In this document: piece by piece, positions 2 through 34,101 of the stretch
Numbering within the stretch: the stretch's first letter is position 1
How the letters are laid out: every line of letters begins with the position of its first letter
Source: a virus
Length of the DNA stretch: 36,695 nucleotides
IMG/VR virus record: IMGVR_UViG_3300025011_000108
Coordinates: 1-36,695 of that record
Strand: one strand, 5' to 3'
Program-made: the position numbers and the translations under genes
Notes under the pieces: model-generated
Databases searched by the model: none
What the model saw: only the letters and a program-made list of their open reading frames with translations
What the model was told of the DNA's origin: nothing

Positions 2-529
2 GGGTTCAAAAATATCTACCAGCAAACCGGCATTGAAGCGGACGACATCATGGCTAGGCTGGTGAGAGATAATCCCCATCAAGTAATCGTCCTGACCGGC
101 GATGAGGATCTTTTGCAACTGGTTGATCAGTGCACTTGGTATTCGCCGATGACAAAAACTTTAATGAATGAAAAGACCTTCCGGAAGAAATACGGCATTG
201 CCCCAAGGGATTGGCGAATAGTCAAGGCCCTGGCTGGTTGTTCTTCTGATAAGATTCCCGGCATCAGTATGGTCGGGGAGAAAACGGTTTTGAAATACCT
301 GAACGGAACCCTCAATAAAGATACAATTGTCAGCATGGTTATTGAGGATGAGAAACGGGCCATGAAAAAGAAAAATGGCATCCTCGTTAATCTACCATTC
401 CCGAAAACGCAATCAGTTGAGATTCAGGGTGATGAATTCAGCCCGGAAGGGTTTGGTGCCATCTGTGATTTATTTGGCCTGGAGAAACTGGCGGAGAAAG
501 TCGATGATTGGGGGATGATGTTTCGGTGA
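2..529 (+). CDS. 5'-3' exonuclease / flap endonuclease, 3' part (cut by window edge)
   Basis: The reading frame is open from base 2, so the N-terminal part lies outside the window. The visible 175 residues carry FEN/PolA-type 5' nuclease motifs: a GIEADDIMARL acidic motif (metal ligands), TGDEDLLQLV, and a helix-3-turn-helix region reading SSDKIPGISMVGEKTVLKYL, which matches the SDNIPG-x-GxKTA pattern that binds DNA. Members of this family (T4 RNase H, T5 D15) remove RNA primers and flaps during replication. It is the first visible gene of a + strand DNA-metabolism operon; its TGA stop overlaps the GTG start of the next gene. The family assignment is firm; the exact in vivo role is inferred. 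Confidence 0.88.
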   Translation, partial: GFKNIYQQTGIEADDIMARLVRDNPHQVIVLTGDEDLLQLVDQCTWYSPMTKTLMNEKTFRKKYGIAPRDWRIVKALAGCSSDKIPGISMVGEKTVLKYLNGTLNKDTIVSMVIEDEKRAMKKKNGILVNLPFPKTQSVEIQGDEFSPEGFGAICDLFGLEKLAEKVDDWGMMFR

Positions 530-1005
530 TCAAGCAACTCAAACAATCAGAACTCAAACAGCTCCGCAATAATATCCTTCTTGATCAAGACGGCCGGTGT
601 CCCATCTGCCGAAGACAAATAAATGAATATGAAATTTGCTTGGACCATGAACATAAAAAGAAAGTAAAAGGCACCGGTCAGATCCGCGGGGTTCTTTGCC
701 GGGCCTGCAATACCTTTCTGGGCAAAATGGAAAATAATTGCCGGCGATATGGGATCAGTCGGGTGCGTTTACCAAACTTTTTATCAAGGACGGCTGATTA
801 TCTCAGGGAAGACCATAAACCTTTTATTCATCCAAGCGAAAAAGAAAAAGCCCCAAAATTGATGAAATCTTCGTATAATAGTTTGAAAGCAAATTATTCC
901 GGTAAAGCAAAATTTCCTGGATATCCAAAGTCGGGAATATTAACAGTTAAATTAAAAACCCTTTTCCGGGAGTATGGGATCAGGCCAAAATTTTACGGGA
1001 GGTGA
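526..1005 (+). CDS. Recombination endonuclease VII-like Holliday junction resolvase
   Basis: A 159-residue protein with the His-Me finger endonuclease VII fold signature: zinc cysteines C25/C28 and C58/C61, a catalytic LDHEH segment (D40, H41, H43), RG at 54-55 and N62 following the second Cys pair. These positions are almost the same as in T4 gp49 (recalled: D40, H41, N62; Zn Cys 23/26/58/61). The family cleaves Holliday junctions and other branched DNA so that concatemers can be packaged. I chose the GTG at 526 because it overlaps the upstream TGA (GTGA) and places the zinc site correctly; a TTG at 508 in the same frame is possible. The C-terminal 90 residues are basic and could bind DNA. 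Confidence 0.88.
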   Translation: MIKQLKQSELKQLRNNILLDQDGRCPICRRQINEYEICLDHEHKKKVKGTGQIRGVLCRACNTFLGKMENNCRRYGISRVRLPNFLSRTADYLREDHKPFIHPSEKEKAPKLMKSSYNSLKANYSGKAKFPGYPKSGILTVKLKTLFREYGIRPKFYGR

Positions 1006-1012
1006 GTTTGAA

Positions 1013-1198
1013 ATGTTTTGTTCAGCTGAAGTTATAAAATATAAAAATAAAGAATTTTGCAAATCAATAAACTGCGCCCAATTAACAAAACAAGATGAAT
1101 GTAAAATAAAAGGGTGTATTTATTCTGCGAAAGATTTTCACCATTGGTTAAATAAAAATAATTTCTGTATTTCAAAATGTATTAAGGCAGAAAAATGA
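1013..1198 (+). CDS. Small cysteine-rich protein, unknown function
   Basis: A 61-residue ORF with about seven cysteines spread along its length and many lysines, suggesting a small metal-binding or disulfide-rich protein; no family recognised. The ATG at 1013 is preceded by a strong GGAGGTGA ribosome binding site. An in-frame codon at 974 would extend it into the preceding gene but lacks such a site. Its TGA overlaps the ATG of the Rad50-like gene, so the two are probably translationally coupled. It is noticeably more A+T-rich than its neighbours. Confidence 0.6.
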   Translation: MFCSAEVIKYKNKEFCKSINCAQLTKQDECKIKGCIYSAKDFHHWLNKNNFCISKCIKAEK

Positions 1199-2229
1199 TC
1201 AAATCACTCCGGATAGAAAATCTTGAATCCCACAAAGATACCTTTTTCGAGTTCTCCCCCGGCCTGAATGTTTTTGTCGGAGAAACTGACCGGGGGAAAT
1301 CTGGATCTTTCCGCGCCTATAAATGGCTGACTCAGAATAATCCCGGTGGCGAGTGGATGAGGCCCCTGTACTGGGATGGTACAACAACCGTTACTGGCGA
1401 GTTTATCAATCCCGGCCTTATCCTCAAGAGGGTCCGGGATAAATCAGAAAACAGTTATATACTCAATAACGAGAAACCAATCAATGCCGGCACCTCAGTC
1501 CCAAGCAATATAGCCACCTTGCTGGATCTCGATGATGTCAATTTGCAGACCCAGATTGAACGGGCTTTCCTCATGTTCGAAACTTCCGGGGAGCGCGGGC
1601 GTATACTCAACCGGATTGCTGGTTTGGATGAAATTGAACAAACCCTCTCCAATGCCAAGGAAGATGTAAATCGGCTTGATAAACTTTGGAAGAGCGAGAA
1701 AGCAACGGCGGAGGCCAAGGAAAAAGAGTTAGAAGAGTTTGTCGATATTGATGATATGGAAGAACGAGTCGGCCAGATCGATACCATGCAAAAGCTGCAA
1801 GCCTTCTCCGGCTCCAGGATTCAGAACCTAAAGAAATTACGGGATAGTCTAAAAACGCTTGAGGATGCGATTACAGGCAAGGAAGGGTTGCTTGCGGCCG
1901 AATCTACGCTTGAGGGTTTAAAAGAGAAATTACAGGCGGTACAGGTTGCGGAATCGCGGATTGCGAAGTTGAATAGAATCCTGACTTTGGATTCTGCTAT
2001 AAAAAGGAAGGAAACGGCGGAGAACTTCGAGGGGATCAAGGAAAGGTTTGAAAAGATCGGGATCGGTACAGGGGCCTTGGAATTATCTTCAGCCAGAGTA
2101 AAAAAACTGAAAAGATTATTGTCCGATTTTAGTATAATAGGGAAAGAGATTGCCGAGGTTGAGGATGAATTAAAAGACCTGCAGGTGAAGATTCCAAATA
2201 TTTGTAGCGAGTGCGGGAGGGAGTTATGA
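1195..2229 (+). CDS. SbcC/Rad50-like ATPase, N-terminal half (Walker A, coiled coil, zinc hook)
   Basis: 344 residues. The N-terminal beta strand and a Walker A motif GETDRGKS (residues 29-36) bind ATP; a Q-loop region lies near 118-130 with the text LQTQIERAFLMFE and a downstream ERGRILNRIAGLDEIE segment, typical of Rad50/SbcC. Residues from about 145 to 330 are charged heptad-like coiled coil. The protein ends at ICSECGREL, a CxxC zinc-hook half (C337, C340) only four residues from the C-terminus. There is no ABC signature, Walker B or D-loop; these are in the separate gene at 3768-4412. In a normal SbcC both halves are on one chain. The gene is part of an overlapping string with SbcD at 2400, and the products probably form an end-processing complex together. 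The ATG overlaps the previous stop (ATGA). Confidence 0.85.
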   Translation: MIKSLRIENLESHKDTFFEFSPGLNVFVGETDRGKSGSFRAYKWLTQNNPGGEWMRPLYWDGTTTVTGEFINPGLILKRVRDKSENSYILNNEKPINAGTSVPSNIATLLDLDDVNLQTQIERAFLMFETSGERGRILNRIAGLDEIEQTLSNAKEDVNRLDKLWKSEKATAEAKEKELEEFVDIDDMEERVGQIDTMQKLQAFSGSRIQNLKKLRDSLKTLEDAITGKEGLLAAESTLEGLKEKLQAVQVAESRIAKLNRILTLDSAIKRKETAENFEGIKERFEKIGIGTGALELSSARVKKLKRLLSDFSIIGKEIAEVEDELKDLQVKIPNICSECGREL

Positions 2230-2399
2230 TACGCAGAACCCCAATTAAAGAAGTTGAAGAAGAAAAAATGTGCAAATGTAGAAAAAATCCAGCAGCAGAA
2301 CCGCATACTTGTCCATACGCTGAGGAAATTAATGGCGATTCTGAAACTCTTTGCACCTGTTGTGAAGATTGTCAATACGAATGCGCTATGGATATCTAA
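2226..2399 (+). CDS. Small Cys-rich (probable zinc-binding) protein
   Basis: 57 residues starting at an ATG that overlaps the TGA of the Rad50-like half (ATGA). The protein has a dense cysteine pattern: CKC near residue 16, then HTCPYAEEINGDSE, LCTCCEDC and ECAMDI at the C-terminus. Similar small proteins with the words HTCPYAEEI and CTCC..C are, from memory, common in phage genomes, but no function is established to my knowledge. It lies between the two partners of the Mre11-Rad50 system, and its stop abuts the SbcD start with no gap, so it is translated with them. A longer version from 2211 would start inside the preceding gene and is less likely. Confidence 0.7.
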   Translation: MIRRTPIKEVEEEKMCKCRKNPAAEPHTCPYAEEINGDSETLCTCCEDCQYECAMDI

Positions 2400-3338
2400 A
2401 TGAGACGAAGCAACCAACCCAAAAAAGCCGATGCCATCCTGACTGCTGATATTGAACTCCGAGCCTTCCAACCAACTTGCCGGACTGATGATCACTGGGC
2501 GGCACAGGAAAGGAAAATCAAATGGCTTTGCCAATTGCAAGCCGAGAATGATGGATGCCCTATTCTTGATGCCGGGGATCTCTTTGATAAGCGGTACAAA
2601 TCAAACCCAAGCCACGAGTTGCTTGGTTGGGCAATGGAGAATTTGCCGGAGAAGTTTTATACCATACCAGGCAACCACGACCTGCCGGGGAAATCAATCG
2701 ATAATTATTCCAATTCGGCAATGGCAGTACTGCAAAGAGCCGGAGCTATAAAAGTGACATATCCATGGAAAACAACTGTTGACGCGGAAATTCATCTTTT
2801 TGGTTATCCTTGGGGCTTGGAAATAAAACAGCCGTTAATTCGACCTGTAATTGAAGAAAAATATATCGCCCTTGTCCACGCCATGGTCTATGAAGAGTTT
2901 GAGCCCTTTCCCGGCTGTGTCGGTTATTCCGCCAAGGAAGTAATGGATCTGCTCCCGGACTTTGACCTGATTGTCTGTGGCCATAACCATCAGACCTTTA
3001 CCCGGAAAGAGAATGGGAGGGTCCTTGTCAATCCCGGCTCCTTGATGCGGAATGATGCCGACCAGATTGATTTTAAACCCAGCGTCTTTTTGTGGTTTGC
3101 CGATACCAATACAATCAAAAGGGTTTATGTGCCGATTGAGGAAGGGGTTATCAATCGGGATTATATCGACATCAAAAAGGCCAAGGAAAACCGTTTGGAT
3201 GCTTTTGTAGAGAAACTTGGTGAACAGGTGGTATCCGGAATCAACTTCCATGACAACCTTGAGGCGGCGGTCAGCGATGGTCTGATAACCCAGGGCGTCC
3301 TGGATAAGGTATGGAACTATTATGAGGGCTTGAAATGA
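2400..3338 (+). CDS. SbcD/Mre11-like metallophosphoesterase (nuclease)
   Basis: 312 residues with calcineurin-like phosphoesterase motifs in order: motif I reads TADIEL (D17, E19), motif II DAGDLFDK (D60), motif III GNHD (91-94), motif IV LVHAMV (H160) and motif V CGHNH (194-197), followed by VNPGSLMR. This family, with Rad50/SbcC, trims DNA ends and hairpins using two Mn ions. The usual motif I is DxH; here the His position is Glu (DIE), so one metal ligand is altered. The C-terminal 80 residues are helical and probably form the Rad50-binding region. It sits between the two halves of the split Rad50-like ATPase. ATG directly follows the TAA of the preceding gene. Confidence 0.88.
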   Translation: MRRSNQPKKADAILTADIELRAFQPTCRTDDHWAAQERKIKWLCQLQAENDGCPILDAGDLFDKRYKSNPSHELLGWAMENLPEKFYTIPGNHDLPGKSIDNYSNSAMAVLQRAGAIKVTYPWKTTVDAEIHLFGYPWGLEIKQPLIRPVIEEKYIALVHAMVYEEFEPFPGCVGYSAKEVMDLLPDFDLIVCGHNHQTFTRKENGRVLVNPGSLMRNDADQIDFKPSVFLWFADTNTIKRVYVPIEEGVINRDYIDIKKAKENRLDAFVEKLGEQVVSGINFHDNLEAAVSDGLITQGVLDKVWNYYEGLK

Positions 3339-21819: not shown

Positions 21820-22172
21820 ACGAGATATGCCTTTCGCAAAAATTGATCGGCCTTGATTGTCGGGATCTTCTCAAATCCCTCAATAGTCAGTGCATCTTCT
21901 GTTTCTGGAGTTCCAAAACTTGAAAGATCAATCAAATTCATTAAAGCCATTCTCCCCTTCATATCAAAATCGGTTTCAGAAAGAACAACTACCCGGGAAA
22001 GTACTTCCTCAACACCATTGCCAGTACCTTGCGATGTCAAAAACTTTTCCCGCTTTATAGTCCACCGGACAGCTACCTCTACCGGTTCGCCATAAGTATA
22101 TCCGCCATATCCATCCGGTGTTGGTGATGGCCAGTAAACCGCTTTCTGATTGAAGAATTTTCCGAGATTCAT
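21816..22172 (-). CDS. Head closure / minor capsid-like connector protein
   Basis: 118 residues. FFNQKAVYWPSPTPDGYGGYT and EPVEVAVRWTIKRE at the N-terminus, then a beta-rich body (SRVVVLSETDFD) and IKADQFLRKAYLV at the C-terminus. This is the layout of head closure proteins (SPP1 gp16-like) that seal the portal after packaging. Position after the adaptor and before the gp10-like gene supports the call; the family link is moderate. Confidence 0.7.
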   Translation of the reverse strand: MNLGKFFNQKAVYWPSPTPDGYGGYTYGEPVEVAVRWTIKREKFLTSQGTGNGVEEVLSRVVVLSETDFDMKGRMALMNLIDLSSFGTPETEDALTIEGFEKIPTIKADQFLRKAYLV

Positions 22173-22540
22173 CAGTGATACCCAATCATGTTCAGAGAAG
22201 CAGATTTCTTATATCCTTTTGTGGCAATCTGGCTGAGAGTCCCGGAAGTATCCAAAAGAATTGCCATCTGACCATAACTGGTACCATTCAAACCCATCCC
22301 CCACTGCCCTTGATAAGATTCAGAAAGGACATCGACACCAACAGATTTTACTCTCTGATCCTGTACGCTCAATACATGGGCGGAGAGATATCGCTCAATC
22401 TCTTTCAAGGTTTCATCTGTCAAACCAGCAGTTTCCAGCCAGGAAGTTACCATCATATTTGCCGTATTGATAAAAACATCAATATCAGTTAATGTGGTAT
22501 CGATAATGGCAAACACTTCAGTATCAGTTACACGAGGCAT
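22172..22540 (-). CDS. Head-tail adaptor (gp6-like connector)
   Basis: 122 residues. Helical N-terminus (TDTEVFAIIDTTLTDID, INTANMMVTSWLETAG) followed by EIERYLSAHVLSVQD and a C-terminal loop YGQMAILLDTSGTL. This matches the helical adaptor proteins (HK97 gp6/SPP1 gp15 type) that bind beneath the portal; the ERYL.AH helix and the D-x-T/S-G-x-L loop are typical. First gene after the glycan cassette; TAATG overlap with the sulfotransferase-like gene. Confidence 0.74.
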   Translation of the reverse strand: MPRVTDTEVFAIIDTTLTDIDVFINTANMMVTSWLETAGLTDETLKEIERYLSAHVLSVQDQRVKSVGVDVLSESYQGQWGMGLNGTSYGQMAILLDTSGTLSQIATKGYKKSASLNMIGYH

Positions 22541-23217
22541 TACTTGCCCTCCTCATTAAACCATTTTGGTTCGATAAAGGCTTTAACCATTGGCTCGTTA
22601 AATACCAAACCGATGCTCTCTATCAGCTGCCTGGCATAATCCCAATCGCCAGCACAAAGACGAGATGGCCAGAAGTCAAAAATATCCAGTTTGGCGGTAT
22701 GCATTTCAGCAAATCTTTTCTCATGCTGATCTATCCAAGACTGCCAACCGGCTTCATCTCGATAAGCCCGCATGAACCGGGTCAATTGGCAGCTCCGAAT
22801 GATGTCTTTATGGGTCCGGTGAATGATAATCCACTTTGCTTTTGGGAAAGCTTTATGCCACATGTACCACATCCCAGCAGCCTTAGTACATTTGCAGAAC
22901 CATTCACCGCTTTTATATCCCTGAGACATCATAAGGCGCTGAACAATATCTCTCCAGTGATCTGCTTCCGGCTGAGAAACTTCAAACACCTGACGATTGT
23001 TTGGGAGAGGCTTCTGCCCCATTGGATCGGCACCAATCTTTTTCAGATATGGTTTGACAATATCGTTCCGAAGTTTGCAGTTTTCAAACATTCCCTTCTG
23101 AGCTTCTGGGCTCGGGCCATACATTTCCCCACCAAAAGCACCACAGATATTAAGCATGCCTGCCGTCATAGACGTTCCAGAACGGGCGCAACCAACTACC
23201 AAAATCGGATCTTTCAT
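22540..23217 (-). CDS. Sulfotransferase-like protein
   Basis: 225 residues. The N-terminus DPILVVGCARSGTSMTAGML is the P-loop-like 5'-phosphosulfate binding loop of PAPS-dependent sulfotransferases (GxxRSGTS). A second motif, WIIIHRTHKDIIRSCQL (about 130-146), matches the 3'-phosphate site with Arg and Ser. The family transfers sulfate from PAPS to sugars or proteins. It is the last gene of a five-gene glycan cassette and is coupled to the glycosyltransferase upstream (ATGA, with an AAAGGAGC site). A substrate on the virion or the host surface is an inference. Confidence 0.78.
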   Translation of the reverse strand: MKDPILVVGCARSGTSMTAGMLNICGAFGGEMYGPSPEAQKGMFENCKLRNDIVKPYLKKIGADPMGQKPLPNNRQVFEVSQPEADHWRDIVQRLMMSQGYKSGEWFCKCTKAAGMWYMWHKAFPKAKWIIIHRTHKDIIRSCQLTRFMRAYRDEAGWQSWIDQHEKRFAEMHTAKLDIFDFWPSRLCAGDWDYARQLIESIGLVFNEPMVKAFIEPKWFNEEGK

Positions 23218-23861
23218 GCATGCTCCTTTACAATTTCTCGCCAAAGGGTTGGAACTTCAAATGGCCTGGGTTTACCATGAAAAACAAGAACTTTACAATT
23301 TGAAGATATCCCACCAGAACAGTGCCGCTTGTATGAGTAGATACTCTCCGGGAAGGCATCTTGCAATATTTTTGGGATAACTCTTTTTTCTCTCAGTTTG
23401 GCATTCGTATAATCCTCTTCTCCACGAAGTTGCTTGGAGAACTTCTCATAATCGAATTGTTCATACAACCAGGACCAATCACCATTCCAAGCCATAATCC
23501 CCGAGATAGTTCTGACTGGAGGCCGGAAAGAACGAATCATCCAGAAGTCTTTTTCAGTGGAGTCGGTGACTACCTTAAACAGGTCATCAATATTTCCTCT
23601 GATTACAGTATCAATCCCGGTTACAACAGTAGGGCCAATATTCCGGAAGACCTCGGGAACAGACCACCAGCCAGGCCAGTTGTTAATCAGTGGAATAGAG
23701 ACAACGCCATCAATCTTTTCCTTGGAATCTGTAAAACAAATGAAGTCATAAGGAATCGTCGTATTTGCTCGTACCTGCGCTGCAAGGAGTCGGACGTGCT
23801 CTTCTATATAATCTCCGCCTAACTTCAGTACACAGGCAAATACCGGCATTGTCGACCTCAT
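23214..23861 (-). CDS. Glycosyltransferase-like protein (paralogue B)
   Basis: 215 residues with a GT-A nucleotide-sugar fold layout: VFACVLKLGGDY, HVRLLAAQVRANTTIPYDF, CFTDS, then TGIDTVIRGNIDDLF around residues 90-105 (the DxD region reads GxD), and IMAWNGDWSWLYEQFDYEKF. It shares these blocks with the upstream gene, so the two are tandem paralogues. The start at 23861 overlaps the upstream TGA (ATGA) and gives an N-terminus aligned exactly with the paralogue; an internal ATG at 23849 is possible. The sugar donor and acceptor are unknown. Confidence 0.75.
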   Translation of the reverse strand: MRSTMPVFACVLKLGGDYIEEHVRLLAAQVRANTTIPYDFICFTDSKEKIDGVVSIPLINNWPGWWSVPEVFRNIGPTVVTGIDTVIRGNIDDLFKVVTDSTEKDFWMIRSFRPPVRTISGIMAWNGDWSWLYEQFDYEKFSKQLRGEEDYTNAKLREKRVIPKILQDAFPESIYSYKRHCSGGISSNCKVLVFHGKPRPFEVPTLWREIVKEHA

Positions 23862-24487
23862 TCCACTAACCTCCACAGATTCGTCCGCCAGGGCTTGGGG
23901 TCACCGTGAAAAATGATGATTCCTGGATCTTTCACAAGGCCTTTTCGAACATGGCGCTTATAGCTACAAATCCCTTCAAAATATTCCTGGATTGCTGTTA
24001 AATCAACGCCCTTGGTCAGTAAAGCATTTATCTGGTAATTTTCATCACCACGATGAAGTTTTGATTCCTTCTCAAAGTCAAACTCATCATACAACCAGGA
24101 CCAATCACCGTTCCAGGCCTGCATTCCATTTATAAACTCTCCCGGATGAAAGAACGAATCCAATAAAAAGAAATCCTCTTCCGGGATATGACAAACCATC
24201 TTCAGGAGGTCGTCAATATTCTTCAGGACCAACGTGTCCAAGCCAATGGCAATTGTCGGCCCCTGGTGTTTCCAAAGCTCGACACAAGACCACCATCCGG
24301 GATAATTCTTTTCAAGTTCGACGGTCTCTATTTCCAGGAGTTCATCAACCTGATCTGTATAGCAAACAAAACGATAAGGAATCGTCGCATTGCGTTCAAT
24401 CTGCCTTGCGAGTGCTCTTACATGACCTGGGTAATAATCGCCGCCAGAGCGAAGGCAAACAACTATTGAAGGGATCTGATCGCTCAT
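23858..24487 (-). CDS. Glycosyltransferase-like protein (paralogue A)
   Basis: 209 residues, same architecture as the next gene: SIVVCLRSGGDYYPGHVRAL, IPYRFVCYTD, PGWWS, IAIGLDTLVLKNIDDLLKM, AWNGDWSWLYDEFDFEKE and a final IIIFHGDPKPW. As in the paralogue, the first Asp of the usual DxD metal motif is Gly. The ATG overlaps the stop of the acyltransferase gene (ATGA). Two related transferases in a row may build two steps of one glycan. No signal peptide; cytoplasmic. Confidence 0.75.
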   Translation of the reverse strand: MSDQIPSIVVCLRSGGDYYPGHVRALARQIERNATIPYRFVCYTDQVDELLEIETVELEKNYPGWWSCVELWKHQGPTIAIGLDTLVLKNIDDLLKMVCHIPEEDFFLLDSFFHPGEFINGMQAWNGDWSWLYDEFDFEKESKLHRGDENYQINALLTKGVDLTAIQEYFEGICSYKRHVRKGLVKDPGIIIFHGDPKPWRTNLWRLVE

Positions 24488-24981
24488 AGCCACTCGCTCT
24501 CCGGTACCGTCCCAATCTTGACCGCCCGACTCTTTCCATGAGGAACCCCCCATACTTCACCGGCCGGGATATTTTTGGTGACAAAAGAATTGGCATGAAC
24601 AAAAGCATTTTCCCCAATATTTACACCAGGGGCAATTACCGCGCCAGCCCCAATCCGAGCGCCATTGCCAATAACCGCCCGCTCGATCTTTGGAACTGCC
24701 CGGCCCTGATTGGCGATATTCTTCTCGTTGGTCATTACCACTCCTGGACCAAAGAAAACATTATCCCCGATGGTCGCTTCCGCGGTGATATGACATTGAG
24801 ATTGGATCGTTGTATTGCAGCCAATCTTGGTATTCTTCTCAATCACCACATTATGGCCAATGATCGAGTTATGACCAATCTCCACATTATCCCGCAGGAC
24901 AACAAAATGGAAAACTTTGGCATCAATAGCGATCTTGACACCTCGATCAATTACAACGTATGGGCTGATAAATCCTGACAT
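24484..24981 (-). CDS. Hexapeptide-repeat (left-handed beta-helix) acyltransferase
   Basis: 165 residues composed of repeated [LIV]-G-x4 hexapeptides (VEIGHNSIIGHNVVIEKNTK, then IGCNTTI, ATIGDNVFFGPGVVM, AVIGNGARIGAGAVIAPGVN), a classical LbH trimer fold with the substrate loop around 80-105 (TNEKNIANQGRAVPKI). The N-terminal layout (ISPYVVIDRGVKI) and the C-terminal AGEVWGVPHGKSR resemble sugar N- or O-acetyltransferases of the WbbJ/PglD/FdtC type. These use acetyl-CoA to acylate nucleotide sugars or glycans. It belongs to the glycan cassette and overlaps the preceding gene by 31 bases. Confidence 0.85.
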   Translation of the reverse strand: MSGFISPYVVIDRGVKIAIDAKVFHFVVLRDNVEIGHNSIIGHNVVIEKNTKIGCNTTIQSQCHITAEATIGDNVFFGPGVVMTNEKNIANQGRAVPKIERAVIGNGARIGAGAVIAPGVNIGENAFVHANSFVTKNIPAGEVWGVPHGKSRAVKIGTVPESEWL

Positions 24982-25616
24982 ATGGCCTCTAATGGTTTTC
25001 GTTCAAATGTTTCAAGAGCGCCGCCAACTGTTGCGTTTATAATCTTCAATCCAACCTGATTTGCATCCCTGGCTATTACTGGCCAGTACTTCATAAACTT
25101 TGGGTATGGGTCATGAAGTCGTCCTGCTTTTTTGTCGAACCTGACTTCGTAGTCGTTGTGCCAATGAGACTGTGTATCTTTAGGGTCTTCTGGATTCTGC
25201 ATATCGAAACCGAGAAGCACGACCGTTTTAGCACCAAGCCAATAGGCAAAATTGATCGCTGAAGCACCGGAGTTGCCATTCCAGGCAATGGCATTTCTTC
25301 TCTTGATCTCAATTCCAGATGGCTTGCTTCTGCCGACATATTTCACCCTGGCTTTTCTTTGCTCTGGAAGGGTGGCTGCACAAGTGACAATCAATCCCCC
25401 ATATTCACTTATGGCCGGCAAATTCTCTTCGTACCAGCCTTTATCCCCGAACCAGCAGGCATCAACCCAAGGTCCGAGTTTGTATGCCTGATTAACTCCA
25501 ATTACTCGGTGGTTATGGATGAGTGATAAATCCTGTTTTAAAAGACTGACTCCCCCACCGATAATGAAGACAATCGAGCCTGGCCATAAGGCCGGTATTT
25601 CCCAGAAATTAGCCAC
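24951..25616 (-). CDS. MptE-like (DUF115-type) Rossmann protein of the glycan cassette
   Basis: About 221 residues from the GTG at 25616; an in-frame TTG at 25676 would add 20 basic residues. The body reads GSIVFIIGGGVSLLKQDLSL, VIGVNQAYKLGPWVDACWFGD, a GNSGASAINFAYWLGAKTVVLLGFDMQ segment and a His-rich SHWHNDYE, the pattern of DUF115/MptE-like proteins that occur with glycosyltransferases and bind sugar phosphates or nucleotides. Its exact reaction is unknown. It overlaps the upstream gene and is the first of five glycan-cassette genes located between capsid and connector genes. Confidence 0.72.
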   Translation of the reverse strand: MANFWEIPALWPGSIVFIIGGGVSLLKQDLSLIHNHRVIGVNQAYKLGPWVDACWFGDKGWYEENLPAISEYGGLIVTCAATLPEQRKARVKYVGRSKPSGIEIKRRNAIAWNGNSGASAINFAYWLGAKTVVLLGFDMQNPEDPKDTQSHWHNDYEVRFDKKAGRLHDPYPKFMKYWPVIARDANQVGLKIINATVGGALETFERKPLEAICQDLSAHTL

Positions 25617-26088
25617 GAGCTTCGAGTATTGCTTCGCGGAGCTGATCTTCGGCTTCGTACTCTTCGAGGATCTCAATTTCTTCCTCTTCCATGATATCGA
25701 TCAGGGCATCCCAGTCCAGCGCACCAAGATCAACAATTTCAGTCTTGGGGATCTCCATCATCTTCCCCATGATCTTTTCTGCCTCGCTTTTTTTCATCGG
25801 GGCATCATTCAGGGGTTTATCGGGATTGTCCGGGTTGACGATATTATACATTCCCCGCTGGACCCGAACCAGATGGAGTTCTTTCGGTGGGGTCGTTGGT
25901 ATTTGAATCTTCGCCGGTTCGGAGATCGGTTTAACCGCCGTCAAACAGTCATAATCTTTTTCGAACGAACCAAGAAATCCTTCCGGCACTTCAACTACAT
26001 CGCCCGGCACGACTGAAAATCTTTTCCCATCATACTTAAAGGAATGCCGTCCCGTTTTTGCTTTCTTTCTGTATTTACAAAGGTTCAT
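25609..26088 (-). CDS. Hypothetical head-region protein with HeH/Rho-N-like C-terminus
   Basis: 159 residues. The N-terminus (KYDGKRFSVVPGDVVEVPEG) resembles a small beta domain found in phage head-region proteins. The acidic C-terminal 40 residues (DWDALIDIMEEEEIEILEEY, then AEDQLREAIL) look like a SAP/HeH/Rho-N helix-extension-helix motif. I choose ATG 26088 because an AAGGAGG site lies five bases upstream; the longer frame from 26145 would include the hairpin. It lies directly after the capsid gene and may be a head-completion or assembly protein. Confidence 0.65.
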   Translation of the reverse strand: MNLCKYRKKAKTGRHSFKYDGKRFSVVPGDVVEVPEGFLGSFEKDYDCLTAVKPISEPAKIQIPTTPPKELHLVRVQRGMYNIVNPDNPDKPLNDAPMKKSEAEKIMGKMMEIPKTEIVDLGALDWDALIDIMEEEEIEILEEYEAEDQLREAILEARG

Positions 26089-26120
26089 AGAGCCCTCCTT
26101 GCTGGTTATCTTTGATGAAA

Positions 26121-26149
26121 TAGAATGGTGGATTGCGCCCACCATTCTA
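26121..26149 (-). terminator. 11-bp hairpin downstream of the major capsid gene
   Basis: A perfect 11-bp stem (26121-26131 with 26139-26149; TAGAATGGTGG / CCACCATTCTA) closes a seven-base loop, 30 bases after the capsid gene's stop. On the - strand it is followed by TATTTC rather than a T run, so it is a weak terminator or an mRNA 3'-end stabiliser that could keep capsid transcripts more abundant than downstream ones. The structure is certain; its function is inferred. Confidence 0.6.
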
Positions 26150-26179: not shown

Positions 26180-27253
26180 TTAAGCGTGCAGTACCGTTAC
26201 GCCACAGTTGCCATTCTGATCGGCCCGGATCTGCGGGACCATAATCGTCATGACCTTGTAATTGGTGGTCATCCCGCCGCCCTCAGTCCATTCGACCGTG
26301 GTAAGGGGCAGGCCTTCAACCATCCTGACAACATCGGAAGTCATCTGAACCAGAACAACATGATCTGCAGTCATCTTGTCGACGACCTTGACCTCGGTGA
26401 TACCGGCGATTTCTAGGATACGCTGACGAATGGTCTTGTCGGATTCGGCCTTGTAATCGTCGTCAAGAACGGTCTCATACGAAGTCGGCAAATAGAGAAC
26501 CCAAGGCCCGTAGAAATGAGAATCAATGGATGCCTGTTTCATCTCGCGAACATCATCAAGAATATCCTCGCCAGTTGTCCCCGATGCATCCCAGTTTGCC
26601 GCCAGAGTGACATTATTAACTTGAGGATGATCCAAATACCCATAGATGATTCCACCGCCATAAGCATACGAAGAAACGCCGGCAAACAGCATATCTTCGA
26701 TCTTCTCTGCGACGACACGAGCGGCCATGGTGGCGGTCGTGGTATCCAGCGGGGTACTGCCATTCCTGGAGGCGGTCAGAGTCCGAATATTATACTGGAA
26801 ATCCTTATGGACGATCGGCAGCGGCAAATACTTCAGGGTCGTTTCGGGCCGGTCCCGTTTGCTCGGGGTGACCGCATCCATGGTCAGTTCAGCGGCAGTC
26901 AACTCGGAGATATCCTCATACTCGAGAACGGTCTTCCCAAGGCCATTGCCAATCCGATATACCAGATTCCGGGAATACAGATCCGCTACGCCGACGAGAC
27001 GCTCCTGGGCAGCGAACATAACCGCCTGATCGAGTTCCTTCCACTCATCTTTCCGGAGAGTAGCGGCGTTGACCCGAACCACCTGCGGCTGGCCGCTATT
27101 ATAGACAACAGCATAAGCATGGCCATCCTGGCCGATCCAGGGTTTGAGCAGACCGACCGACATCCCGCCGGCCATCAGTTTTTGTGCTACGGGACCAGAC
27201 CCGGCGCCATTCTGGATAAATTCAATCCCAGCATTCGCATACGTTTTATTCAT
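26180..27253 (-). CDS. Major capsid protein (encapsulin-like HK97 fold)
   Basis: 357 residues. Several blocks resemble the encapsulin/linocin M18 family: DEWKELDQAVMFAAQERLVG, SRNLVYRIGNGLGKTVLEYE, LKYLPLPIVHKDFQYNIRTL, and PLDTTTATMAARVVAEKIED followed by MLFAG. Encapsulins share the HK97 capsid fold, and phage capsids of this subgroup use the same sequence family. It has a strong GGAGG-type site and is flanked by short gaps, with the decoration protein and protease/scaffold upstream, the normal head-gene order. The N-terminus shows no long delta domain, fitting a separate scaffold encoded upstream. Confidence 0.85.
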   Translation of the reverse strand: MNKTYANAGIEFIQNGAGSGPVAQKLMAGGMSVGLLKPWIGQDGHAYAVVYNSGQPQVVRVNAATLRKDEWKELDQAVMFAAQERLVGVADLYSRNLVYRIGNGLGKTVLEYEDISELTAAELTMDAVTPSKRDRPETTLKYLPLPIVHKDFQYNIRTLTASRNGSTPLDTTTATMAARVVAEKIEDMLFAGVSSYAYGGGIIYGYLDHPQVNNVTLAANWDASGTTGEDILDDVREMKQASIDSHFYGPWVLYLPTSYETVLDDDYKAESDKTIRQRILEIAGITEVKVVDKMTADHVVLVQMTSDVVRMVEGLPLTTVEWTEGGGMTTNYKVMTIMVPQIRADQNGNCGVTVLHA

Positions 27254-27314: not shown

Positions 27315-27806
27315 TTACGCGATTTCTACGGGACAGCGACCAGAAGGATCAGCGGCAGACGATCCGGACATATCACAAGCTGCCATTGCATAGCCGACAA
27401 TACAATTATCGGCAATCGGGGTGGTATCGGCGCTGGAATCATCCCATACCGATTCGGTGGGTGCTGTATATTTGGTCAGAGTGCCATCACCAGCAGACTG
27501 CAGAGGATCGCCGATAGCGATATTCTGACCATTGGCAATAATGGCGTTTACCTCAGCGCCACGTTCCACGATCTCATACTGTACGCGGGTATTGGCGGCA
27601 TAAGCATCAGCAATCGTTTTGCCCTGCATATCGTCTTCAATAGCGAAAGCCTTCTGTGCATGTCCACCAGCAGTGGCGTGAACTCGCAGTTTGCCAGTGG
27701 TCATAACTTCAACCAGATGCCCCGGAGTGATAGCGGCGTTTGCCACTCGCTCTTTCCGGATTCCTCGACCGATCAGGATGATCGTTTTTGCATTTGTAGC
27801 GGCCAT
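27315..27806 (-). CDS. Capsid decoration / head stabilisation-like protein
   Basis: 163 residues, beta-rich: TIILIGRGIRKERVANAAIT, PGHLVEVMTTGKLRVH, YEIVERGAEVNAIIANGQNI, AIGDPLQSAGDGTLTKY. The pGhlve, RGaevna, GDpLqSaGDGtl pattern resembles head-decoration proteins encoded between protease/scaffold and capsid genes. It would bind the capsid surface and stabilise it. GGAGGG ribosome site before the ATG; it may also be a target for the glycan cassette, which is only inference. Confidence 0.72.
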   Translation of the reverse strand: MAATNAKTIILIGRGIRKERVANAAITPGHLVEVMTTGKLRVHATAGGHAQKAFAIEDDMQGKTIADAYAANTRVQYEIVERGAEVNAIIANGQNIAIGDPLQSAGDGTLTKYTAPTESVWDDSSADTTPIADNCIVGYAMAACDMSGSSAADPSGRCPVEIA

Positions 27807-30765: not shown

Positions 30766-32280
30766 TCATGGAGTAAATTTTGCAACTCCGGTTTTTGAGT
30801 AGTTATCGTGAAAAATGAAATCCTTTTGTTTCTGCATCACAATGTCGCCGGATTGTAAATAATTGTCGTGGACCTTGTTACCATATTGGTATGACTGTGA
30901 CCCGTAGATGCCCTTGACTGCCAGAGCCTCAGTGTTATAAATACCCATCAGGTTATTCCCTGATATCTCATTATGCCAGGCAATTGTCTCCCACAAAGAC
31001 AGCATTAATCCCCCGCAGACATTTATCCCCTTGGACATACCTGAGACGAGATTATTTTTGACGCTGAATCCGCAACAATTCAGCCATAATGATATCCCTA
31101 CGCCGTAGGTAGGGTCAGCCCCATAACTGCCGAAAATCTCATTATGTGAAATGTCACAGTTATAGAATCCTGCCTGAACGGAAAAAATCCCAGAAAGACT
31201 CACAGTGTTTGCCGCAATGGGTATGTCCAGGATCAAAGAATTTGTTAAATGATCAAACGAATGTATCCTGGCTATTAATCCATCTTGACCTGTTGCTCGA
31301 TTGAAAGAAAACCTGAACTTATGCCAGTCGTCCCGGCCCGACACTAAGCATTGGTCGATCCCTGATACCAGTACGTGCTGCATACTTCCAAATGTTACAA
31401 CAAGCCTCCCTGCTGCATCATTGGTAGCAGCAGATAATGTTCCAGTGCATATAGTTGGGCACAAACCTTCATCATTTCCATAGCCATCAAAGGCGATCCC
31501 CTCTTCGTCTATGCCATATAATTTATTGTTCGCAACTACTGCCCCGGAAATAACCCCGTAACGAGAAGCTGAAAAGAAAATCCCGGTAATTGCCCCGAAC
31601 AAAGAGGCATCTATCACATTATTTGAAACATCAATCTTTCCATTATCGTCAAAACTTTTAGCTCCACTGATAGAATCTGGCGCCCACTGTGGAGATATTG
31701 CAACAGGGTGAGAAACCTTTCCTGTAAATTTAAAAGAATTGCCAGAGAAAATAACACCTCTTATCCATCGCAAATTAAATGCGCTGTAGCATTGCCCAAA
31801 AGTTCCGACATTATCAATAATCTCTACCGCAGGGATATCACCTCTTGGGCTGTCGAAAGAGAAATTAAACAGATAGGTGGATGATGGATTGTCATCGGTT
31901 AATAACTCACACCCCACTATTGAAAATTTGCGAGGCACAGGCCAACCTGGATGTAAGGGAGCCTGCATGGTTAAATAGTTGCTAGTTAGCCTTATGTTTT
32001 TTAGTGATATGTCAACCGCTCCACAATTTATGATATTTGCAAGACTGACATTTTCCCTGTTATTTACAACAAACGTATCCATTCTACTGCTTCCCAGGAA
32101 TCTGCCGCCAAACATATTTACAGCGTCAGACAGACTGTAGTCGCAATAGTATGTCCCTGGACTAAAAAACAAATCCTTATGTCGATTTGTTGACTTGGCG
32201 GCCCCTATTGCATCAACTATGCTCTGGGTGGTAGTCCCGTAGCTACTTACATCCACCATTGTATCTGAGTTATATCTCAC
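30766..32280 (-). CDS. Right-handed beta-helix tailspike / pectate-lyase-like protein
   Basis: 504 residues. Repeating short strand turns (TFVVNNRENVSLANIINCGA, then VDISLKNIRLTSN, VIFSGNSFKFTG, KIDVSNNVIDASLF, GAVVANNKLYGIDEEGI, NCDISHNEIFGSYG, FSVKNNLVSGM) are typical parallel beta-helix rungs, with NN/SxN turns. Such proteins are tailspikes, often cleaving surface polysaccharides; no catalytic acids can be assigned by eye. The start is GTG 32280, overlapping the upstream TGA (GTGA). Unusually it is encoded between the portal and the MuF gene rather than after the tail genes. Confidence 0.82.
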   Translation of the reverse strand: MRYNSDTMVDVSSYGTTTQSIVDAIGAAKSTNRHKDLFFSPGTYYCDYSLSDAVNMFGGRFLGSSRMDTFVVNNRENVSLANIINCGAVDISLKNIRLTSNYLTMQAPLHPGWPVPRKFSIVGCELLTDDNPSSTYLFNFSFDSPRGDIPAVEIIDNVGTFGQCYSAFNLRWIRGVIFSGNSFKFTGKVSHPVAISPQWAPDSISGAKSFDDNGKIDVSNNVIDASLFGAITGIFFSASRYGVISGAVVANNKLYGIDEEGIAFDGYGNDEGLCPTICTGTLSAATNDAAGRLVVTFGSMQHVLVSGIDQCLVSGRDDWHKFRFSFNRATGQDGLIARIHSFDHLTNSLILDIPIAANTVSLSGIFSVQAGFYNCDISHNEIFGSYGADPTYGVGISLWLNCCGFSVKNNLVSGMSKGINVCGGLMLSLWETIAWHNEISGNNLMGIYNTEALAVKGIYGSQSYQYGNKVHDNYLQSGDIVMQKQKDFIFHDNYSKTGVAKFTP

Positions 32281-32522
32281 TCAAACCACCCTGGATAAAC
32301 CGTCTGCCTAGAGTTAAATGTTACTGTCCCAGCGCCTGTAAAACTAAAACTATCGACAAGGGGGATTATTGAAACGAATATGGGCGATATTGCAAGGTCA
32401 TACACTCCACCTGTACCGTTCAACTCGTGCGCTTCAGATATACCTTTTTCTATCTTGTTCAATAAATCTGCCGAAACACCGGGAGGCGCACCATTCTTCC
32501 ATACTGTTTTTGTGTAGCTCAT
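32277..32522 (-). CDS. Small tail-appendage protein (fiber N-terminus-like)
   Basis: 81 residues. The first 30 residues, YTKTVWKNGAPPGVSADLLN then KIEKGI, are the common phage word 'Y-KT-W-G-P-isa-LN-iE-GI' found at the start of appendage and fiber proteins. The C-terminal half is beta (AISPIFVSIIPLVDSFSF). It may be an adaptor for the adjacent tailspike, which it overlaps (GTGA). The ATG at 32522 overlaps the second TGA after the preceding gene, see the entry at 32519. Confidence 0.65.
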   Translation of the reverse strand: MSYTKTVWKNGAPPGVSADLLNKIEKGISEAHELNGTGGVYDLAISPIFVSIIPLVDSFSFTGAGTVTFNSRQTVYPGWFE

Positions 32523-32590
32523 ATAGGATAAATTTCATCTCCAGGATAAAATGTTTCAGACGGCAAGACCGCTGTCAATTCTACGCATCA
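32519..32590 (-). other. In-frame extension behind the TGA of the tail-appendage gene
   Basis: The gene ending at 32588 stops at TGA (32588-32590); the same frame stays open for 22 more codons (including TAVLPSETFYPGDEIYPI) to a second TGA at 32519-32521, which overlaps the next start as ATGA. The extension repeats the FYPGD words present inside the gene. Either the first TGA is a recent nonsense mutation or it is read through at some rate. Confidence 0.55.
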
Positions 32591-33826
32591 AATTGGGGTA
32601 ACAAGCATATTTTTAGCTTTTATTGTTCCAGGTCCTGCTGAGGTCCTCAACGCCAGACGTGTCCCCGTAGCGGTTACAATTGAAGACGCAACCTGCCCAT
32701 TTTTCTGTACGGTATTTGAAGCCGGACCTCCGAGAAAACAATTGATACTGGTAGTAACTGCACCCTCTGGGAACTCCCACTGGATTAGATATTGCGCCCC
32801 GACCGTTACTCCTACCAATGTTTGGGTAAAATACGATGATGCAGTCGTAAATGTTCCGGTCAGGAACCCTTCTACAACAGACAGCGAAACCCCGCCCTCA
32901 TAAAAGGTCCCCCACTCAGCAGTCCCGTTGCCGAGGTCTCCGTTTACCACTAAATTTTCCACTTTTGTCGTGATCGTAAATGTATCAGACACGCCATTAA
33001 TCGTCACAACTGCATCGGCAGCAGTCTCATACTCAGCACTTGATGTACGCTGCACCTCAAACGTATCGCCAGGATAAAAATCACCAGGAGTGGAAACAAA
33101 ACTCCCGCTACCGTTCAGTCGGTATGCGCCACCTGATACTGAGATGGTGCCGATTCCAACCAGCCCTGTGACGGATACAGGTGCTGAGGTGATAAGTGTT
33201 GATGTGGCAACTCCTGTCTGGTCGGTGATTGTAAACTGATCAGGTGTTGCTGTTGAGTATTCCCATGACCAAGCAGCACATCCACCACCATCAATCAGTG
33301 CCGGAATTCTCCATCCTACACCTATGGCGGTCTCGCCGGTTTCCTCCAGGTACTGTGTTCCATCAGCCACAGTGTACCCTCGCTCGTTCGCGTAGTTGCT
33401 GCCGCTCCCATCCAGTCTCTCGGTGATGGTGACACCGTCCAGATACAGCGTGTGACCGTTACCACTCGCGTCGATCTCAAACGTACCGCCCGCATTTATC
33501 CCCGGCAGATAAGCCCATCTCACGCCATCCCGGAATATGTCAATATCCCAGCAGTCAGGCCCAGGAAAAGTCAGGGTGCCATTCACGCTGCATGTCGGAG
33601 CGTCGCCAGTGGCGGTGATGGTGTCGGTGGTCAACAGGCCGGGGCAAGGGGAGCTGCCCGCGCCCAGGAAGCCTGAGCTTTTGACCTGCTGGGTGGTGTG
33701 GGAGGATGCAGGTGCGTAGGCAATAAGTTTACCATCATCTACTGTGGTGCGATACCAAGCTAGGAGGTTGGCTTGGTCAGGACCCAATCTTCGACGACCA
33801 CCAATTAAACCAAGTGACAAATCCAT
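32588..33826 (-). CDS. Tail-appendage protein with Ig-like and carbohydrate-binding-like domains
   Basis: 412 residues to the first in-frame TGA. The N-terminal 150 residues are Gly/Ser/Thr-rich beta with paired Cys. An Ig-like module with the words GSFVSTPGDFYPGDTFEVQR covers about 240-295, and the C-terminal 120 residues (NLVVNGDLGNGTAEWG, YFTQTLVGVTVGAQYLIQWE) resemble a CBM4/9-type carbohydrate-binding jelly roll. It probably contacts host glycans. TAATG overlap with the upstream gene. The natural end may have been 22 residues further, because the frame continues past the TGA to an ATGA overlap with the next gene. Confidence 0.7.
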   Translation of the reverse strand: MDLSLGLIGGRRRLGPDQANLLAWYRTTVDDGKLIAYAPASSHTTQQVKSSGFLGAGSSPCPGLLTTDTITATGDAPTCSVNGTLTFPGPDCWDIDIFRDGVRWAYLPGINAGGTFEIDASGNGHTLYLDGVTITERLDGSGSNYANERGYTVADGTQYLEETGETAIGVGWRIPALIDGGGCAAWSWEYSTATPDQFTITDQTGVATSTLITSAPVSVTGLVGIGTISVSGGAYRLNGSGSFVSTPGDFYPGDTFEVQRTSSAEYETAADAVVTINGVSDTFTITTKVENLVVNGDLGNGTAEWGTFYEGGVSLSVVEGFLTGTFTTASSYFTQTLVGVTVGAQYLIQWEFPEGAVTTSINCFLGGPASNTVQKNGQVASSIVTATGTRLALRTSAGPGTIKAKNMLVTPI

Positions 33827-34101
33827 TACATTACCGCAAGGTCAACAGCGGTGTTAAATGTAAAAGTCGTGCCTGGATTAATACCAATCACCTGGCCGGG
33901 AGAGATATCAATATAAACCGATCCAGATGAAGAATCAGCACCAATCGTAAAAGCAGAATAATCGCTACTAAAAAACGCCTTGTCTGGCTCATCCGGTATC
34001 CATTCGGTATATGCAGCCACAGATATGATTCGCCGTGGAGCAAATACCGGGAGTTTTGTTCTGATAATTGTATCGTCTGGTGTGCTAAAAGGATTCGGCA
34101 T
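33826..34101 (-). CDS. Small beta-rich protein of the tail-appendage group
   Basis: 91 residues, no recognised family. Predicted all beta (RIISVAAYTEWIPDEPD, AFTIGADSSSGSVYIDISPG, GTTFTFNTAVDLAVM). The ATG has GAGGAA nine bases upstream. It is the first gene after the 245-bp intergenic region and leads the tail-appendage cluster, so it may be an accessory subunit or adaptor of the neighbouring glycan-binding protein. Confidence 0.6.
   Translation of the reverse strand: MPNPFSTPDDTIIRTKLPVFAPRRIISVAAYTEWIPDEPDKAFFSSDYSAFTIGADSSSGSVYIDISPGQVIGINPGTTFTFNTAVDLAVM

Follow-up and report, generated by a model that had tools for sequence, protein, structure and literature searches.

Glycosylated virion proteins have been described for the mycobacteriophages Che8, Corndog and Myrna (Freeman et al. 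2023, as summarized in passages of PMC12363180, PMC12691614 and PMC12619734). According to these passages, phage-encoded glycosyltransferases act on capsid and tail-tube proteins, and one or a few such enzymes are involved (Che8 gp110, Corndog gp38). The glycosyltransferase genes of the related phage Maravista are located near the 3' end of its genome (PMC11256854). Here we describe a cassette of five genes, g1 to g5, in the head operon of a virus record of 36,695 bp (IMG/VR IMGVR_UViG_3300025011_000108), the whole of which is referred to as the window. A deep clade of tailed phages has an exchangeable locus for glycan assembly, of which these five genes form one version. Its enzymes probably glycosylate a virion protein in the cytoplasm and also acylate and sulfate the glycan. 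Compared with the mycobacteriophage systems, the locus is a multi-enzyme one located beside the capsid gene, with predicted acylation and sulfation and with supply genes. Reports of virion glycosylation have so far concerned a few mycobacteriophages; a head-operon locus that is exchangeable and adds sulfate would be a new form of it, acting on a putative acceptor in the window. The original prediction, made from the DNA alone, had named no characterised phage system with this exact set, and a literature search on phage sulfotransferases, in a collection without most subscription papers, likewise found no such locus.

Partial counterparts were observed in other phages. P1 and Citrobacter phage phiNP carry a g1-like gene together with g3/g4-like genes (pmgO, pmgP and pmgQ in P1), but elsewhere in the genome. 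In Pseudomonas phage D3, a g1-like gene, orf7, occupies the same slot between the capsid gene and Ad1. The P1, D3 and phiNP records contain no sulfotransferase match and no large cassette, and no match to g5 was found in cultured phage records. The gtrABC and bacterial O-antigen loci resemble the cassette in their conserved flanks and exchanged sugar-gene interior, but the cassette has no flippase, polymerase or GtrA-type membrane protein and is located in a late head operon. The relevant features of the window are as follows.

24951..25616, minus strand: g1, GT42-sialyltransferase/Maf-like transferase, first cassette gene (GTG start, 221 aa)
24484..24981, minus strand: g2, left-handed beta-helix (hexapeptide) acyltransferase of the sugar N/O-acetyltransferase type
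23858..24487, minus strand: g3, GT8-like glycosyltransferase
23214..23861, minus strand: g4, GT8-like glycosyltransferase, paralogue of g3
22540..23217, minus strand: g5, sulfotransferase of the 3'-phosphoadenosine 5'-phosphosulfate (PAPS) type, last cassette gene
26180..27253, minus strand: major capsid protein (MCP; phrog_771 1.8e-28, phrog_264 2.1e-12), left border of the site and candidate acceptor
25609..26145, minus strand: 178-aa gene between MCP and cassette, matching no known family
22172..22540, minus strand: Ad1-like head-tail connector (DUF4054 2e-4, just under the cut-off; phrog_302 3.5e-4), right border of the site
27315..27806, minus strand: head decoration protein (phrog_766 2.8e-17), another candidate acceptor

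The analysis computed family-level gene identity, operon linkage, constraint, the conserved position with its exchanged interior, and the genes in relatives that supply PAPS and the cytidine monophosphate (CMP) conjugate of 3-deoxy-D-manno-octulosonic acid (Kdo). Relatives were gathered by IMG/VR searches with g5, g1, g3/g4 and capsid queries. Both borders are present in 40 non-redundant phages; the MCP-Ad1 gap is nearly empty in 6 of these (286-549 bp) and filled in 34 (1.6-9.4 kb). g1 comes first in 33 of the 34 filled sites and g5, typically last, is present in 27; each of the 34 holds at least one of the three marker families (g1, g5 and GT8-like). Because cassette genes had served as queries for part of the loci, a separate count was restricted to capsid-query loci, which gave 6 empty and 23 filled sites, with g1 in all 23 and g5 in 16. 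One insert (L105) consists of g1 alone. Cultured relatives with an empty site are the Brevundimonas phages StAshley and MaInes. In the MCP tree, a branch with support 100/91 separates the empty-site capsids from all loci with a detected cassette; the locus is therefore old and has been retained while its interior changed. The exchanged interior genes encode GT2, GT11, GT29-like and DXD transferases, UDP-glucose dehydrogenase, Polysacc_synt_2 and an epimerase, and further FkbM and rhamnosyl methyltransferases, sets of alcohol dehydrogenase, transketolase-like and short-chain dehydrogenase/reductase proteins, radical S-adenosylmethionine (SAM) proteins and second sulfotransferases. The search for the same set in other phages, which had been recommended at the outset, showed the exact five genes to be one version only. 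Across the wide set, the MCP alignment had too little conservation for a collection scan.

The cassette (25616-22540) lies in a minus-strand, siphophage-type head and tail operon. The operon runs from the end of terL, where the record is cut, through portal, head morphogenesis (Mu-F type), protease/scaffold, decoration, MCP and 178-aa genes to g1-g5, and then to the Ad1-like connector, neck and tail genes. All five open reading frames (ORFs) of the original prediction were found, in the predicted place between capsid and connector genes. Each overlaps the next gene, and the outer ones overlap both neighbours. The ATGA-type overlaps that had been reported were observed as 4-base overlaps at the g2/g3, g3/g4 and g4/g5 junctions; the g1/g2 overlap spans 31 bases, the overlap of the 178-aa gene (P10) with g1 spans 8 bases, and g5 joins the Ad1-like gene at TAATG. 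Ratios of nonsynonymous to synonymous substitution rates (dN/dS) against four close relatives are 0.009-0.088 for g1-g5 and similar, 0.035-0.040, for the capsid gene, and the cassette genes are under strong purifying selection. Because of these ratios and the family matches of g1-g5, the five genes are not chance ORF content. The base composition of the cassette is unremarkable, and a scan for internal promoters and terminators was only modestly above shuffles. By dN/dS against close relatives, the 178-aa gene evolves faster than neighbouring genes; its position is also occupied by a small gene in the empty-site phages.

g1 was originally taken for an MptE-like, sugar-binding protein. This assignment was rejected, as the Pfam PF01973 score is 15.8 bits against a cut-off of 34.6, and g1 is GT42/Maf-like instead. 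It matches phrog_4603 ('alpha-2,3-sialyltransferase') in PHROG with an E-value of 1.3e-34. For a profile of 23 g1 relatives, GT42 sialyltransferases are the only significant PDB sequence family (2x63, E 1.5e-5); the GGGPSL and NSGxxA...LGxDxx regions align, at low similarity and with no Pfam CST-I match. This family includes CstI and CstII, which are lipooligosaccharide (LOS) sialyltransferases (PDB 9c08, matched by the g1 profile, bears this name). The AlphaFold2 model of g1 (pLDDT 93) has the Maf flagellin glycosyltransferase 5mu5 as its top Foldseek match (E 1e-6), and an MptE-type structure (8sd5) ranks second. g1 and Maf thus have a fold in common, but 5mu5 comprises 632 residues and g1 221 aa, and the acceptor of g1 would be a phage protein. 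The cytoplasm is where Maf1 glycosylates flagellin, and CMP-pseudaminic acid is its proposed donor (PMC4065374). g1 is likely a CMP-sugar transferase.

The acyltransferase reading of g2 was borne out by Pfam Hexapep (E 1.7e-27; 94.4 bits against a cut-off of 27), and its PDB matches are sugar N-acetyltransferases (7s43, 1.6e-18; 3mqg, 2.5e-17). g3 and g4 are paralogues, as had been claimed; they are 44% identical and match phrog_1962 at 2.2e-24 and 2.8e-29, respectively. The g3/g4 family profile matches the Skp1 galactosyltransferase 6mw5 (E 1e-6) and glycogenin (2e-4), and the AlphaFold2 model of g4 (pLDDT 94) matches glycogenin and 6mw5 in Foldseek with an E-value of 5e-8.

g5 exceeds the Pfam Sulfotransfer_3 cut-off (E 4.1e-9; 37.5 bits against 27), consistent with the sulfotransferase first suggested, and the cut-off is also passed in 8 of 20 relatives' records. 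Among 28 g5 relatives, the PAPS-loop residues R12, S13 and R134 are invariant, and K109 and S142 are each conserved in 27. The g5 profile aligns to tyrosylprotein sulfotransferase (TPST) with the PAPS loops matched, but weakly (E 0.01). An ORF resembling adenosine 5'-phosphosulfate (APS) kinase lies immediately 3' of g5 in four cassettes (TIGR00455 in L016, 5e-18; L014, 3e-13; L018, 3e-16; Pfam APS_kinase in L133, 1.2e-18). These ORFs have a shortened C-terminus and score below the NCBIfam equivalog cut-off but above the Pfam cut-off; the L018 protein, the one compared with solved structures, matches APS kinases. The phage of L090 encodes a full-length APS kinase (6e-57) in another part of the genome. 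A bacterial g5 homologue (36%) adjoins cysQ in a gammaproteobacterial metagenome-assembled genome (MAG; L118:8654-10663), outside any visible phage operon, and is assigned as a cellular member of the g5 family. CysQ removes 3'-phosphoadenosine 5'-phosphate, the by-product of PAPS-dependent sulfation. The predicted use of PAPS by g5 fits both the APS-kinase-like ORFs and the cysQ neighbour, and sulfation as a predicted activity is well supported. The only clues to the host are MAG contigs (Spirochaetota, Balneolales and others).

Genes for the acidic sugar were observed in relatives. A CMP-Kdo synthetase is located between terL and portal in two of them (the phage of L033, NF003950 1.6e-65; L089, PF02348 1.7e-42), which fits a CMP-sugar donor for g1. 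The window's record has no CMP-Kdo synthetase; it holds the terL end, a 72-aa ORF and portal at that place and is cut at that end. Phage-made sialic acid was rejected as a source, with NeuB in 0 of 25 records. In a hydropathy scan of 226 ORFs, two hydrophobic windows were seen in none and a single marginal one in 15, and the cassette proteins look soluble. A GtrA-type protein was found in none of 19 long relatives, and serotype conversion of the gtrABC type was rejected on these two results. The original prediction had left open whether virion proteins are decorated or the host surface is altered late in infection. The late head-operon setting and the enzyme set stand. A virion protein is favoured over the host surface as acceptor, though not proven, because of the capsid-gene linkage across the deep clade, the lack of membrane glycan proteins, the absence of a tyrosine integrase from 17 of the 19 long relatives, and the Maf precedent.

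We propose that the soluble cassette enzymes would work in the cytoplasm of the host while they are expressed late. The donor of g1 would be a CMP-sugar, for example CMP-Kdo or one with a relative of sialic acid, and the acidic sugar that g1 transfers would probably be the first, protein-linked one or a key one. g3 and g4 would add hexoses from UDP-sugars, g2 would acylate the glycan, and g5 would sulfate it with PAPS as donor. The acceptor would most likely be an abundant head protein (the capsid, decoration or 178-aa protein), so that particles released from the cell would be coated with a sulfated and acylated glycan. In this scheme the donor, the step order, the acceptor and the biological role are proposed. 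More tentatively, the locus may be a capsid serotype locus, in which a sialyl-type transferase and a sulfotransferase in a fixed capsid-connector slot frame freely exchanged sugar genes. Each lineage would then carry its own sulfated or otherwise modified coat, with supply genes for PAPS and CMP-Kdo recruited when needed.

Several observations weigh against glycosylation of a virion protein. g5 is missing from 7 of the 34 filled cassettes, and the membrane test is a simple hydropathy scan. In both g3 and g4 the DxD motif of GT8 enzymes reads GxD, with the first Asp replaced by Gly, and they are called GT8-like and not filed as GT8 for this reason; all of 19 relatives have the last Asp and 11 of them have the full DxD, and metal use or activity of g3 and g4 is uncertain. 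Phage P1 can grow lytically without pmgO, pmgP and pmgQ (PMC10695390), and a vital role in the virion is therefore not the general rule. Synthesis of the lipopolysaccharide (LPS) core likewise employs GT42 and GT8 enzymes and CMP-Kdo synthetase, and since the core is flipped by the host, a membrane protein of the phage is not required. These last points lead to the main alternative target, namely late remodelling of the host LPS or LOS core. GT42, GT8-like and CMP-Kdo functions would act on a lipid-anchored core at the inner membrane, the host would export it, and adsorption to the dying cell or its debris would be altered. The matches of g1 and the GT8-like enzymes do include LOS enzymes (the sialyltransferases CstI and CstII and the galactosyltransferase LgtC), the synthetase occurs in two relatives, and the named bacterial hosts of g1 and g3/g4 relatives are Gram-negative. 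We nevertheless consider this target unlikely, since the tight linkage to the capsid gene has been kept through a deep clade and late expression leaves little time for a surface change. The rarity of integrases makes lysogenic conversion unlikely, GtrA is lacking in the long relatives, and the O-antigen-like turnover of the interior fits a coat under selection.

If g5 sulfated a tyrosine of a virion protein and not the glycan, glycosylation and sulfation would be separate marks on head proteins; the PDB chains closest to the g5 profile are indeed TPSTs with aligned PAPS loops. However, that match is weak, Sulfotransfer_3 is a broad family, and g5 occurs almost only in cassettes rich in glycan genes, and neither in empty sites nor in the insert that holds g1 alone, which makes this arrangement improbable. 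DNA is also a possible substrate of phage glycosyltransferases, as with the T-even glucosyltransferases, and three relatives have thymidylate-synthase-like ORFs. Base modification was mostly rejected and appears extremely improbable: 17 of 20 records, near relatives of 38 and 51 kb included, have no thymidylate-synthase-like gene (though records may be incomplete), DNA-modification genes are not known to include sulfotransferase, CMP-Kdo synthetase, FkbM or UDP-glucose dehydrogenase, and the cassette sits in the head operon and not among replication genes. The high variability of the contents and the non-essential P1 relatives would suit a hot spot of passenger genes with no one shared role. 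This is very improbable given that g1, g5 or the GT8-like family is present in every filled site, with g1 nearly always first, and that purifying selection on the cassette genes is strong.

If glycosylation of a virion protein by the cassette is true, serotypes can exist for capsids as well as for bacterial surfaces, through a fixed, old and exchangeable head-operon locus with sulfation and its own PAPS supply. The results suggest functions for two large protein families of unclear role (phrog_4603 and phrog_1962), and the long unexplained P1 pmgO, pmgP and pmgQ and D3 orf7 become directly testable in laboratory phages.

Within the capsid gene (26180-27253), an N-terminal segment of ~30 residues of the type (K/R)P(W/F/Y)(I/V)GxDG(R/K)x(Y/F)(V/I)T was observed. 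It is present in roughly 32 of 37 assessable cassette capsids and in 0 of 9 cassette-less ones. The segment was not used as evidence because its pattern follows the tree, with exceptions in L124, L125, L126, L104 and L162. By the tree, L159 (1852-5093) groups with cassette carriers, yet it is without g1, g5 and the capsid segment. Further down it carries two genes, a 178-aa P-loop-like ORF (GAESTGTRLA) and a 584-aa ORF, which are perhaps a moved or replaced glycan module. The same slot in L103 (11904-15648) encodes two radical SAM/SPASM proteins, one of which is fused to a methyltransferase, and this suggests radical chemistry in the cassette of that phage.

A second variable site of the head operon is located in the window at 30766-34101 (minus strand), between the portal and head-morphogenesis genes. 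None of its four ORFs has a clear family; one product, of 504 aa, is beta-helix-like and weakly matches NosD, and another, of 81 aa, has a fibre-type N-terminus. L087 lacks these ORFs and L086 has others in their place. Those of the window may encode head fibres, which would be possible glycan acceptors. Divergent early-type genes at 508-3338 (plus strand) encode endonuclease VII, an AAA/exonuclease protein and an SbcD-like phosphoesterase.

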